A stretch of DNA of 64,000 nucleotides from Hymenoscyphus infarciens (lineage: Eukaryota > Ascomycota > Leotiomycetes > Helotiales > Helotiaceae): assembly GCA_001414345.1 (NCBI GenBank), contig LLCB01000037.1, positions 186,001 through 250,000 on the forward strand, read 5' to 3'. A program made the translations under genes and the position numbers. The notes beneath the pieces were generated by a model that had not been told where the DNA came from, searched no databases, and saw only the letters and a program-made list of their open reading frames with translations. Below, one piece after another: positions 15,775 through 23,100 of the stretch. Position 1 is the stretch's first letter, and each line of letters opens with the position of its first letter.

Positions 15775-18700
15775 GATTAGCTTTATGGTCAAGGAGAGTC
15801 GATTACACAGTAGAGAAGGTTGGGCAACAAAAGATTGGACATCACTTCGTACCCTCAGCTTAAGTATAACATCCCATTATTGTAAGCTGACATGTCAACT
15901 GTCAACCCGAAGTCAAATGCAGTGCGACTTTTACAATTTCTTTCCATATTGTAAGCTTACATGAATTTCTCCAAGGCGGAATCCAACATCCAACGAATGT
16001 TGGAAATAGGAGCGGAGTTCCGTACCTGAAGCCTTTTTTATTGATTTGCGTGTTACCCCCGAACGCCATGCTGACAGCATGACGTTGTTTATCGATGCTG
16101 TGCCTAGGGTTGAGCCACATGATCACATACATCCATGTTTCTTGGGCAGCAAAAGTCTTCCGGTGGGATGCTGTATTATCCCTCCACATGGGCATAATTG
16201 CTAAAACCTTTCTGTATGGGGCGAACACCCATCGGTTGAGCTGATGTGGATGTGTCTGCATCGGTGCCGTTCCAATGCATAATCTGCAATCGCGTGCCTG
16301 ATCATCTCATACTTCTATCTCATGCCGTTTATAAGCACCCAAGATTTCAACACGCAGCAGCAGTGTGTATTATTGTTGGCTCCATGTTCAAGGGGAAATG
16401 AGGGTCATTAGCATATTTCAGTGGCGTCGGATTTAAGACGGGAAGGGGGTTCTCGCTACCTATTTCTTTTTTTTTGTAAGAACTATCTAGTTTTGAGGCA
16501 AACCCCATACCAGTGTTTTGTTTTAGTGTTTGATCTGGGAGTTAGGAACAGCTCTTTTTCGAAGTTGAAATCGTGTGTTCTCCGTAGTCTATGGTTCTCT
16601 TACAATTCCGTCTTTCCATAATTAATCATGATACCTCAGTAGTAATCAGAACGGATGATGGTTTACGCGAATACTTTGAATTTTCAGCTAGCGTTTCCTG
16701 GCTTTGCCCTCGGAATGGATTCGCTTTTTAAAATGCAGCACGTCCAAACACATTCATGGAATCCGACACGCAATGCTCGAGCAACCTAGCCATATCTCCT
16801 TTTTTTTCCTCTGAACTCCATACCACCATCTCAAACTTCTATAGTTAATCGAGTCGTTCAAGGCCCGGGTTCTTTGGGGGGAATTCCTGCGGCGCTTAAG
16901 TGACGCTCCTGATGCATGCCCCCATTTGTGAGAAGTTTCGCTTAGAGCGAGTTCGAGATAGTAAGAACTTTCCTTTGGCAAGTTGACAGTTTATTCTCTC
17001 TTCTCATTTTGTTTGGCATATTAGAACACATGTGAATTGAATTGATCATGTGAAAAGGGCGCTTGAAAGTGATTACCGTAATTTTTGCTTCTATATTTCT
17101 ATTACTGTACATCGTTGGTACATCTCACACAGGCCGGATATAAATTAAGCATCAAATTGTTGGTCATTTTCATTAGCCTGTACCGATTCTTCCATTTATT
17201 GGTGGAATTGGGTCAGCAATTGCAATTGCGCCCTTTTCGGCGTTTCTGGTTGGAATATTCGCTTTGGAGAAATGTAACCTATTCTTTTACTTGCATTCTG
17301 ATTCCCTTATTTTAGCTGGAATTTCGCAGAAACCATCGACGAACTGCAGAAACCAATCATATGTCTCGACGGAATTGCAAGTAATATGACAGGGCTGGTT
17401 CAGGAACTGAGCGATCACCTCGAAAATACACAAGGCCGAGAAAAACATTTCGCACCCCCACGCAATGTCGATACGCCAGTCGAACGGGAGTGTAAATTTC
17501 AGGTTGAAATAGTCGTAGATTTACCTTATCCTTTCGAAATAACCGATGAAACGATCTTAAAGGGACTTGAGTTTGGAAACAATTGATTTGGAAGCCGGTG
17601 GTGTGGGGTTGTATTTTTCGTTTCGTGGTTTTATAGAGATAATTGGAACCAATATCCATCAAAATTGTCCATGTTACCTTCGTGTTAACTTTGTAGCTCA
17701 GGAGTAAGTGAGTGAAGTAAGAAGTAATATATGCAGTATGACTTGAAATGTTTCGTAAGTTAGTTTCAATGATAATAATACATGAAAAAAGTTTGAGAAT
17801 TGACATCATTCCTATATTCTTACGAATATCGAAGAACACAAGGCTTTTTGAATATTCATCGCCTTTTCGTAAACACCTTATCATTTATCTATTACTTGAA
17901 AAAGTTGAGAGATTTCAAACTGGTCAAAAGAACTTACGCAATTGGAGAACCTCAAGATTTTGTAAGGTAGCTTTTCACTGTAGTAACATTTTACAAAAAG
18001 ACAAGAATACTTGAATGTCAGAGGTCAGTTACGCCATGCTCTCAAAGTTTGTGTTGTAAAATCGGAAGTATAATTCGTAAAAAGAGGATTCCCAAACTCA
18101 TTTATGGTAATTCTCCTTGAATGTTAAAACCTTTCCTCAACGTACAAACACATTTTGGAAGAAAACGCTCTTGAACTTCAAAAGTAACTTAAGACTGGCA
18201 TTCTGTTTCGAATACTATTACAACTGCGAGTGTCAGGCCTACTTTTAAACTTCATAGCTTCTTTGAAATTCAAAGCAAGTATTGAAATTTGAGCCTCGAC
18301 TTCAAAACTTTCAACCTCCATTTGAATTTCAGAGCTTCTTGAGAACTACAAATCTACTTTTGAGTGTTGAAACGCATATTGAATGTCGGAAGACAATTTT
18401 AAAACCACTCAAATAGTGAAGCAATACGCGGTCAACTTTTGGAGCATCTCATTATTTAGTACAAGCCAAGCCTCTCTAATTCTGTCACCCCCACCCGCAC
18501 CGGCACCTTCTCTCACAAGATACCTAAAAGGCAAAACCAATCCTAGGAATTGGAATTCTCATAGTAACGATTGATGAGTTCAAGTAGATGGAACTCACCT
18601 TCAAAAGTCTCTGCTTGAAGGGTTGATTATTCAGTAAAAAGTGCTCGAGGTAAAATAACATTTCTACAGGAGAGGTCGTAACCAAAACTTGCAGAATGTT

Positions 18701-18939: not shown

Positions 18940-19090
18940 GCGTTTGTGGTTTAGTGGTAAAATCGATGCTTGCCAATTTCAACAGTCTACTGTAGAATAC
19001 AATATGCATTGGCCCCGGGTAAGTTCTTCACACAGCAGTACAATTAAACATCCCCTCTAACAGCGTTTAGGTTCGATTCCCGGCGAACGC
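18940..19090 (+). tRNA. tRNA-Gly(GCC) with a canonical intron and a second, GT-AG-type intron in the T arm
   Basis: Three blocks assemble into a 70-nt tRNA plus discriminator A at 19091. Block 18940-18975 has acceptor strand GCGTTTG, D arm GTTTAGTGGTAAAAT, and anticodon stem/loop GATGC-TTGCCA. Block 19005-19018 has loop base 38, stem GCATT, GGCC and CCGG. Block 19071-19090 has GTTCGATT CCCGG CGAACGC. Acceptor, anticodon and T stems all pair, with G-T wobbles at acceptor pair 6-67 and at G27-T43. The 29-nt intron 18976-19004 sits at the usual 37/38 position. The 52-nt insert 19019-19070 starts GTAAGT, has CTAAC ten bases before the end, and ends TTTAG; removing it rebuilds CCGGG-TTCGATT-CCCGG exactly. 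Internal A box and B box (19070-19080, GGTTCGATTCC) are intact. Confidence 0.85.
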
Positions 19091-19102: not shown

Positions 19103-19109
19103 TTTTTTT
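19103..19109 (+). terminator. RNA polymerase III T-run terminator of tRNA-Gly
   Basis: Seven T residues begin 13 bases after the tRNA 3' end, the usual Pol III stop. This supports 19090 as the gene end and shows that the downstream T-arm piece belongs to the same Pol III unit. Confidence 0.8.
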
Positions 19110-19124
19110 GCCCTTTTACACTTT

Positions 19125-19169
19125 CTTTATTTGCACTATCTTTATTTGCACTATCTTTATTTGCACTAT
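19125..19169. repeat. Three tandem copies of a 15-bp unit
   Basis: CTTTATTTGCACTAT is repeated exactly three times just downstream of the tRNA-Gly terminator. The identical copies indicate recent slippage. Confidence 0.9.
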
Positions 19170-20126: not shown

Positions 20127-23100
20127 TCAACCCGTCGGTGGCACAACAGTAGTCCTCTCCGACCTTCTCGCTTTCTTGAAGCAAGCAAACTCACTCCTAC
20201 TCCCTTCCCTCAGCCTCTTCAACACAGCCCTCATCTCTGGCAATTCGCTTTGGAGTCTCGTTCTCGCATCGTTATCCGTCCCTTTATCCAATTCCTGATA
20301 TATCTGGCTCTGCATCTCACTCGCGCGATCAGTCGTGTACTGACTGAGAGTCTGCGCCACGAATTCCACATCGAGTGTTGCCTGCATGAGTGCCGTGAGT
20401 GTGTATCGTTGTCTCGTTTTGAATGCTTCGAGAAGCTCTCTTGAGGCTTGTTCGAGGAGGTAAGACAGAACGTGAGCTGTGAGAGAAGATGCGGTGGTGG
20501 AGACTTGGGTGTGGACCAGAACCAGACTTAAGAGAGCCTCATAAACATAGGCTCGCACCTCTTTTGGCTTCTCGTCGGCTGCTGGTGGCCAAGCGGGGTC
20601 CAGAATCCCGTTCTTGATGATGTTACGTAGACTTTCAACAGCCGGTCGAGTATATGACTGGAAGAGACGAGCATCAATTTGACCAAGCACATCGCGGATG
20701 GTCTTCGTTTCGTCCGTGAGCTTGACTGCGAATGCGTTTTCGAATTGGGTTGTAAGATTCGGAACAACATCGCTTCGTAGAGATTGGAGATTGCTCAAAG
20801 TGAGAAGCATGCGGACATTCTATTCATGTTAGTCAAGTCTGGCAATAATTGGAAATAACAACTTACTCGATCGCTAGCATTAACAGTACCAGCGCCAATG
20901 CTAGTTGCAATAACTGTTGCAACAGGACTTGCTAAACCATCTGTCTCCGTGGCCCAGTCGTCTTCTGTCTTTGTTATATTTCGTTCGGCGTTTTCCACCA
21001 TTCCGCTCAACGCCTTGTACAGAGTTGTTACAAACTGACTTCGAACCATCTGTAAGAGTTTCGCTGGTGGTGGAAGAACAACCTGAGTACTACCAACTTT
21101 TGCTTCGGAAATATAGAGTATCTTTTGCATTCCCGACAAGACTGCACTTTCAAAGGCACCGAAATTTGCAGGCATTCTTGTGAGATTACGTTTCTCGGGC
21201 GATCGGCGCCAGTCTTCTAACACCTTGATGTTCTCTGCATCTTTATTCCAGGCAGCACAAATGGCTGTGACACATCGCTCTCGTGCACCACCAACCAGAG
21301 TCTTCAGCCGCTCTAAAGCAACACCATCCCCACTGCCAATGAGTGATATGGAAGCCATTTCGCTCGCACCTGTCCCAACTAACACCAATAACTTGGCAAG
21401 GTAGTGAACTCCACTAAGCGAATTTGACCATGGAGGCCAAAAGGCAAACTTTTCCCATGCTTCACCTCGTCTGGGAGATGGTGGAGGTAGGTTATTTGGA
21501 TCGAAAGTGAAACGGGGGTCACGAATTGATGTAGGTGTCAGTGCCGATGAACCTCCAGACCTCGGAGTCATTGGAGTTGGCGGTAAGGGGGAGAATAGAG
21601 AGGATATATCATCTATGGGGGGGTCTGCGAAGAAGGAAAAGACACTCTCCCTTAACATGTCAACTAACTCGATTGTGCCTTTCTGCAACTCGGCTGTACC
21701 TTCAGCAGAGAGTCTGTGGTGCTTTCGGGATTCGCCATTTTGGCCTGCTGGCAAGGTTCTCTGTGCTGTTCCATCGAGGAAAGTCTGGATGGTCTGCCAA
21801 AATTCCATAACTTCTCCGAGTATACCCTTGGGGGAGAGCAAACTGCTGAGATAAATATTCATCTTCTCCCAAAGCTCTATAATTTCTGCGGAATCTATAG
21901 AAGTAGGTTTGTCTTCGGCTGTTTGACGTGCGAGGGATCTGAGATGAGATGCCACTACTTGATTCGAAGGTCTCTCACCGTTTGCTAATCGTCGTCGGAT
22001 GATCTCGATCTCAACCTTGGAACGCTCTGAAGTAGAGGAAATCTTGTTCTTCAGGTGATCATAGCGACTAAGCAGCCAGACCCAAATGGGGTTATCGTCG
22101 ACGCCGAGTTCCAGTAAAATACCTATGAGCTCCATGTGTTGATCTTGTGGGCTACCTTGAGGACCATCGCCCCTGGCGGACATTCCCTGCATGGCAATAA
22201 GTCTTTTCCAGATGTCCCTTTTGAACTGGGAGATCTGCTCTTCAATGTCATGCCACACACGAGCAGCGAGCAGTATCTGATGTAGCTGGGAATCAGTTGG
22301 TGATGAAGACCCCAGAGTTTCAGTAAGGGCTTTGGCATCATCTGCGAACCGTCTTGCTTTGCCGTATTCTTCCACTAAGGTTTCATAATCTTTTCGCTTG
22401 ATGCAATCTGTTATAGCTCCGTTCGCCTCATACATTTCCTTGTATCGCTCAAAGGCTGTAGACATCGTTTTCAGACTGTCTTCTTTTTCACGGCCCCCTA
22501 GAGCAGGTCCCCAGACTTCTTCGGCTTTCGCCGACACATCTAGAAGTGGTTTCTTGATGCCCAAAACCCCGTACTCGCTTTCCTTTGTCAACGCATTCTT
22601 CTTTTTGGTGTCCGGGGTATGGAGAGCCATAGAAGCTTGGTTTCCACTGCTCGTCCTGAAACTATTTCGGCTGGCATGACGCGAATGCGGCCTGCTTTTT
22701 GGAGGAGCCGGTTTTTCGCCTCTATACTTCATTTCCGTATATACATTGTCAATGGTCGCTTTGGCACGGACGAAACGTTCAAAGTTGGACTCGACGAGAA
22801 CCTTGAGGGAAGCGGATTTTTGGTCAATAGACCTCGAAAGTGTATCGAGCCCGTTTAGGAGGTCCTTGGTAGATGCAGTCGAGTGGACCTGGGATAGGAA
22901 GAGCGCCGGCGAAAATGTCGTAGAGGAGAGAAGGAATCTATTTCCTAAATCCTGTTAGATGATTCTCCCCCTCGAGGTGGTGGTTCCTTGACTTACGAAG
23001 CCCGGTATCATCCTGTACTGGCAGACCCAGCTGCCGCAATATTCTCACAACGCTCTCAGTTGTACCCAGGGGGTCTGGCTCATCCCTTTGCACTAGATTC

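Follow-up and report, generated by a model that had tools for sequence, protein, structure and literature searches.

mRNA-like introns in several tRNA genes of Hymenoscyphus infarciens suggest that the spliceosome may be needed to make some tRNAs

A tRNA-Gly(GCC) gene of the ascomycete Hymenoscyphus infarciens carries, besides a canonical tRNA intron, a second insert in its T arm that has the length and the signals of an mRNA intron, and inserts of this kind were found in at least 12 tRNA genes among the 59 loci met in the host genome. The reading that we favour, with a probability of roughly 85%, makes the Gly gene a working tRNA gene with one intron at position 37/38 and, at 52/53, a spliceosomal intron of the U2 type, and counts it among at least 12 genes of this kind. 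In the usual teaching, the introns of eukaryotic nuclear tRNA genes are handled by tRNA endonuclease and ligase, and a spliceosomal intron in a Pol III RNA is a curiosity of U6. The mRNA-like introns described here, present in several tRNA genes, suggest that the spliceosome may be needed to make some tRNAs.

The Gly gene occupies positions 18940 to 19090 on the plus strand of the window, the whole stretch of 64,000 nucleotides that was analyzed, and corresponds to positions 204940-205090 of contig C303 in the host assembly (G000; 65.6 Mb in 742 contigs). All of its parts lie on the plus strand. Exon 1 (18940-18975) holds the 5' strand of the acceptor stem, the D arm, and the anticodon GCC up to nucleotide 37. 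It is followed by the canonical 37/38 intron of 29 nt (18976-19004), whose border ARAGORN draws one base away and whose folding z-score is -3.0. Exon 2 (19005-19018) contributes the 3' strand of the anticodon stem, the variable loop, and the T-stem CCGG, and exon 3 (19071-19090) supplies G53, the T loop, and the 3' strands of the T stem and the acceptor stem. Between these two exons, separating tRNA positions 52 and 53, lies the spliceosomal-type intron of 52 nt (19019-19070). It begins with GTAAGT at 19019, carries the branch-point motif CTAAC at 19057-19061 with 9 nt left to the intron end, and closes with TTTAG. The border is ambiguous by one G (CCGG^GTAAGT..TAG^G or CCGGG^TAAGT..TAGG^T), and only the former of these gives a GT-AG register. 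The predicted spliced junction is GGCCCCGG|GTTCGATT (CCGG|GTTCGATT). Just downstream of the gene, three tandem copies of CTTTATTTGCACTAT are located at 19125-19169.

The first-pass annotation had read this locus as a tRNA-Gly(GCC) gene that combines an intron of 29 nt at 37/38 with a 52-nt T-stem insert at 19019-19070, the excision of which would rebuild the T stem and a TTCGATT loop, and it had expected tRNA finders to miss such a gene. The coordinates and the signals of the insert were confirmed, and the other expectations were also borne out. When 19019-19070 is removed, ARAGORN reports a tRNA-Gly(gcc) with a full cloverleaf, a 5-bp T stem (CCGGG/CCCGG), the loop TTCGATT, and the 29-nt anticodon intron. 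A proper tRNA-Gly is found only without the insert; the intact gene alone, in the intron mode of the program, gives a misfolded structure with a 71-nt 'intron'. Neither ARAGORN nor Rfam, the latter at gathering scores, reports a tRNA anywhere in the window, which indicates that tRNA finders can miss genes of this type.

The insert had also been likened, in signals and length class, to the mRNA introns of the window, and the agreement extends to the spacing between branch motif and intron end. Two comparators on the minus strand were checked by protein homology in a SEC5 gene (about 20.1-23.3 kb, minus strand): an intron of 52 nt at 22945-22996 (GTAAGT...CTAACAGGATTTAG) and one of 47 nt at 20820-20866 (GTAAGT...CTAACATGAATAG). 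After splicing, the SEC5 protein aligns with P0001 over 1040 positions, 945 of which match, and its closest named relative is that of Hymenoscyphus fraxineus, with 89% over the long exon. A search for introns that bridge open reading frames, which itself required GTRNGY, CTRAY, YAG, and a length of 42-94, gave ten calls in the window (nine loci, one with two possible ends) versus 0, 0, and 0 in three shuffled windows. These calls are 44-84 nt long (median 52) and have 5-15 nt from branch motif to end (median 9); the corresponding values for the Gly insert are 52 nt and 9 nt. The raw intron-like candidates, 21 and 31 on the two strands versus 12-22 in five shuffles, are not clearly above the shuffled numbers.

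Inserts at the same position recur in other copies of the gene and in other isotypes. A query with the Gly gene found six loci in the host genome, three with an insert (C303, which is the window, C16, and C80) and three without (C66, C448, and C27). The mature sequences of C303 and C16 are identical at 70 of 70 positions and their inserts align at 41 of 54, while C80 has two differences in 70 mature positions and an insert that aligns with the other two at 39/56 and 37/55. All three inserts share a GTAAGY start, CCCCTCTAACA close to the end, and a final TAG. A genome-wide search for a T-stem pattern (branch motif, then AG and a B box) gave seven places versus six in a read-backwards control: the three Gly genes, two Arg(ACG) genes, one Trp-like gene, and one place on C203 that was rejected, as no tRNA could be recognized there by eye. 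The two Arg(ACG) genes (C122 and C87) have identical mature sequences (71/71) and inserts of the form GTAATT...CTAAC...AAG, which align at 38 of 56; this isotype is also represented by two genes that lack an insert and by a decayed copy that has one (C720). The Trp-like gene (C730) carries GTATGT...CTAAC...TAG, and its anticodon arm pairs imperfectly; depending on the 37/38 border, ARAGORN names it Gly(tcc) or Trp(cca). In all six T-stem genes, the insert is located at 52/53, and a tRNA is reported after its removal (6/6). A wider form of the pattern gave 24 places versus 19 in the control, the six known genes included, and 17 further places that were fetched and spliced in silico yielded no tRNA. 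The inserts of the Gly, Arg, and Trp-like genes seem to have been gained separately, at a preferred spot (G|GTTCGA) where an insert keeps the B box, since the same site is used across isotypes and a search of limited reach detected no insert similarity between them.

The case for removal of the inserts is strongest for tRNA-Phe, for which no uninterrupted gene was found. The first query, a yeast tRNA-Phe sequence, matched four places over the first 37 nt, and a fifth copy (C397), missed by that query, was found by pattern search; the five loci, L130-L134, lie on G000 contigs C734, C732, C336, C270, and C397. The organism's own mature tRNA-Phe, used as a query, matched five genes, each over positions 1-59 only, and no uninterrupted one in the 742-contig assembly, which could itself lack such a gene. 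The four genes matched by the first query combine a 37/38 intron with a T-loop insert between T59 and C60, and their inserts begin with GTAAGT or GTAAGC, end in YAG, and have CTAAY 11 nt ahead of the end. Four of the five mature sequences do not differ at all and the remaining one has a single base change, whereas four inserts, when compared, show 29-42 matches over 53-71 aligned columns. Without the T-loop insert, ARAGORN finds a tRNA in all five genes, named Phe in four and, through a shifted 37/38 border, Thr in L130. The predicted Phe junction is GTGTTCGAT|CCACAGAAGC (GTTCGAT|CCACAG). None of these genes is present in the genome-wide Rfam tRNA list, for which 63 of 3357 candidates were scored. 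A genome-wide search for the T-loop pattern GTTCRANGTAAGY gave 32 places versus 38 in the control, five of them being the Phe genes, and 17 of the other 27 were examined and contained no tRNA. A scan of viral and prokaryotic contigs found no gene of the Phe form. Within the limits of the assembly and the search, the cell would have no other source of cytosolic tRNA-Phe. The concern raised at first pass, that other copies of tRNA-Gly(GCC) could supply the pool, is justified for Gly, where three of the six genes have no insert, but does not apply to Phe, where all five genes found are interrupted.

A different position is interrupted in tRNA-Leu(CAG). The single gene of this type, on C224, was found in a search that scored 40 of 44 candidates, and a later query also gave only this one. 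Its insert of 54 nt (GTAAGT...TACTAAT...AAG) separates the anticodon nucleotides C34 and A35, and the gene also has a 28-nt 37/38 intron; the predicted junction is TTTC|AGG. The two-intron parse is ours and not the program's, because ARAGORN gives Leu(cag) only with both introns removed; with neither removed it gives Thr(cgt), and with the GT-AG insert alone removed it gives SeC(tca) with a 30-nt intron. A T4 run is located inside the insert. Directly past C72, a third intron-like stretch was noticed (GTAAGT...TTACTAAT...TAG; L129, 585-641) in an AT-rich, repeat-like flank, and the T6 run of the gene sits beyond it. Leucyl-tRNA synthetase wants A73, and removal of this stretch at 72/73 would, tentatively, restore that nucleotide; it was left out of the insert count.

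The inserts thus occupy three sites: 34/35 (Leu), 52/53 (Gly, Arg, and Trp-like), and 59/60 (Phe). They are present in 3/6 Gly(GCC), 2/4 Arg(ACG), and 5/5 Phe(GAA) genes, in one Trp-like gene, and in the one Leu(CAG) gene. All 12 have GT...AG borders, CTRAY 9-11 nt ahead of the end, and a length of 49-60 nt. Every 5' end reads GTA (GTAAGY or GTATGT in ten, GTAATT in the two Arg inserts), and every 3' end reads AG, preceded by a pyrimidine in nine (YAG) and by A in three (Arg C122, Arg C87, and Leu C224). Such a combination is rare: in the window, 71 of 1,534,692 segments of 49-60 nt, real introns included, have GT, AG, and CTRAY 8-12 nt from the end, and in dinucleotide-modelled random sequence the same signals occur in 85 of 999,948 segments of 52 nt. 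The Arg and Trp-like genes and Phe C397 were found with the help of the signals, and the Leu borders were chosen with the signals in view; Gly C16, Gly C80, and four Phe genes were found by similarity search, independently of them. All three genome-wide pattern counts given above barely exceed, or fall below, their read-backwards controls, and it is the tRNA context, not these counts, that singles out the genes.

A chance insert was rejected as an explanation in view of the signal rate and the recurrence. It has nevertheless to be considered whether the genes with inserts are pseudogenes interrupted by chance, the tRNA being supplied by uninterrupted genes such as the three for Gly(GCC) and the two for Arg(ACG); decayed relics do exist in this genome (Arg C720, Ala C113, and Ile C1). 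However, the mature tRNAs of different copies show little or no difference, and the inserts diverge yet keep their splice signals. After intron removal the cloverleaves are complete according to ARAGORN, with the anticodon arm of the Trp-like gene imperfect. Since, in addition, no uninterrupted Phe gene was found in the host assembly with the mature query, and the signals occur by chance at less than 1 in 10,000 per segment, we regard a collection of pseudogenes as highly improbable. The spliceosomal-intron interpretation already put forward at first pass is supported, as far as sequence can tell, by the mRNA-intron signals, their spacing, the insert length, and the recurrence in diverged copies and other isotypes.

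The promoter elements indicate how these genes may be transcribed. In the Gly gene, the stretch TGGTTTAGTGG at 18947-18957 is what we take to be the A box, based on its consensus, and the B box GGTTCGATTCC lies at 19070-19080, its first G coming from the intron. The first-pass proposal that the B box survives thanks to this final G agrees with the sequence: the box is retained at the DNA level because the insert ends in G ahead of GTTCGATTCC. A T7 run at 19103-19109, starting 12 nt past the gene, is a probable Pol III terminator. The Gly gene would be transcribed by Pol III with the two boxes as an internal promoter, and these boxes together with the T-run are the reason for regarding the genes as Pol III genes. 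The B box is kept in seven of the 12 genes (Gly, Arg, Trp-like, and Leu) and broken in all five Phe genes, so that the insert positions fit the promoter limits in that the box survives at 52/53 and 34/35 and is broken at 59/60. The 3' trailers of all five Phe genes (L130-L134) share TCTGCGAA and a hairpin, which in L133 is changed on both sides. TCGAAC precedes the T-run in all four Phe trailers with enough sequence, in the form TTCGAAC in three, and this motif might be a relocated stand-in for the broken B box. The introns resemble those of mRNAs, and a second intron-like stretch lies directly 3' of the Leu gene; both favour the alternative that the tRNA sequences are parts of Pol II transcripts, spliced as portions of longer RNAs. 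The Gly gene, in contrast, has its A box, B box, and T7 run, and no stop-to-stop open reading frame of at least 150 aa overlaps it (the nearest listed ones end at 17884 and begin at 20127). We consider an origin in Pol II transcripts the least probable of the alternatives weighed here.

Splicing by the tRNA machinery itself has to be considered as well. An insert of this kind could be an ectopic tRNA intron that the tRNA splicing endonuclease cuts out and whose exons tRNA ligase seals, a route proposed for the red alga Cyanidioschyzon and known from archaea. According to the accessible text of PMC9602550, the tRNA-Ile(UAU) of C. merolae has a T-arm intron at 53/54 that leaves ahead of the anticodon intron, through a mechanism described there as unknown. 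The accessible text of PMC3978253 describes many ectopic introns of the Guillardia nucleomorph as forming no defined BHB motif, so that a missing BHB need not speak against an endonuclease. In the inserts studied here, the helix between exon and intron 3' end has 2-3 bp, and never more, in 11 of 12; the exception is the Leu insert, with a 4-bp exon/intron pairing close to its 3' end, which favours endonuclease cleavage. The helix test is crude and weak, as just 4/12 ordinary 37/38 introns reach 4 bp. Ten of the 12 inserts fold no better than shuffled sequence, which argues against endonuclease substrates; the 37/38 introns of the Gly, Arg, Trp-like, and Leu genes fold better than shuffled (z from -1.5 to -5.3), and the short ones of Phe do not. 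Moreover, all inserts keep their GT and AG ends and a CTRAY motif at constant spacing, none of which the tRNA endonuclease is known to need. Removal by the endonuclease thus appears very unlikely, if slightly less so than the other two alternatives.

If the inserts are spliceosomal introns, two splicing pathways would act on one precursor. The 52/53 intron would be taken out of the Pol III transcript by the ordinary mRNA spliceosome, and the 37/38 intron would be cut by the tRNA splicing endonuclease. This endonuclease needs a folded tRNA body, which the insert breaks, and therefore the spliceosomal intron would probably go first. In C. merolae, the T-arm intron likewise leaves before the anticodon intron, according to the accessible text of PMC9602550. 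As no uninterrupted Phe copy was found, the spliceosome would be required for the whole supply of cytosolic Phe-tRNA. We lean, with some reserve, towards the wider view that the spliceosome is obligatory for tRNA maturation in this lineage. Neither cytosolic tRNA-Phe nor the single tRNA-Leu(CAG) found, with its anticodon split between C34 and A35 and maybe another intron at 72/73, would then exist without spliceosomal splicing of a Pol III transcript; the trailer TCGAAC would perhaps replace the Phe B box, and translation would be directly coupled to the capacity for mRNA splicing.

Parts of this arrangement are known from other systems. The U6 RNA of fission yeast is a Pol III RNA spliced by the spliceosome (accessible text of PMC10484740), which bears out the precedent named at first pass. 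As in U6 of fission yeast and other fungi, a short spliceosomal intron here interrupts a small structured Pol III RNA (PMC10484740, same text); unlike in U6, the interrupted RNA is a tRNA with an additional 37/38 intron, and several isotypes and three positions are involved. A U6 intron in the host genome itself was sought as a sister case and dismissed, as the two best of four U6 matches (L049 and L050) are contiguous end to end. Fungal U3 snoRNA genes also carry canonical mRNA-type introns, and, according to the accessible text of PMC5832005, frequent interruption was known, as of 2017, for no small structured RNAs other than U3 and U6. The list in that text does not include tRNAs, and the introns found here, unlike those of U3, break the T arm, the T loop, or the anticodon. 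Introns outside 37/38, also in the T arm at 53/54 and beside an anticodon-loop intron, occur in C. merolae, archaea, and nucleomorphs (accessible texts of PMC9602550 and PMC3978253). Those ectopic introns are discussed there as cases of BHB cleavage, with exceptions in Guillardia, whereas ours have GT-AG borders, a branch motif at fixed spacing, and the length of mRNA introns. The gain of spliceosomal introns in ascomycetes is familiar from fungal introner-like elements (PMC4457414, accessible text); in contrast to these, seven of the 12 inserts, none of them from Phe, match only themselves in the host genome at E <= 1. Introner-like spread was therefore rejected for these seven, with regard to near-identical copies only, as the same search missed the related Gly inserts. 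A literature search, with subscription papers mostly outside its reach, yielded no description of a nuclear tRNA gene with a spliceosomal intron, and the string 'spliceosom' is absent from the main text of the review PMC4090602.

If this reading is true, the tRNA set of the fungus would be incomplete without the spliceosome, and both splicing pathways would meet in one precursor. Such genes would offer a natural test of spliceosome access to uncapped Pol III transcripts and of the order of tRNA processing, as well as of intron gain at one site in unrelated tRNA isotypes.

The 59 loci are not a census. They lie outside contig C340 and comprise 35/36 loci from the Rfam tRNA search, 11 from a further search, and four Arg, three Gly, one Trp-like, and five Phe loci. 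Yeast and human probes for Asp, Glu, Asn, Tyr, Cys, Pro, Ser, Val(AAC), Gly(TCC), Leu(AAG), and Trp had no match in the host genome, and these isotypes are thus unsurveyed. Contig C340 holds 19 of the 55 Rfam tRNA matches obtained from the 63 of 3357 candidates scored, all on one strand, and looks like a mitochondrial contig. Four relics (C108, C113:42996, C1:373168, and C720) were left out of the tally; the relic loci L106, L107, L072, and L073 consist of the 5' half of an Ala gene, a decayed Ile gene, a chimeric Arg(TCT)-like sequence, and a decayed Arg(ACG) gene still with its T-arm insert. Finally, L063 (C145:40351-40526) is a tRNA-like gene whose anticodon reads UCA and whose anticodon loop is interrupted by a 104-nt insert; it may represent either an opal-reading tRNA or another mis-read intron.
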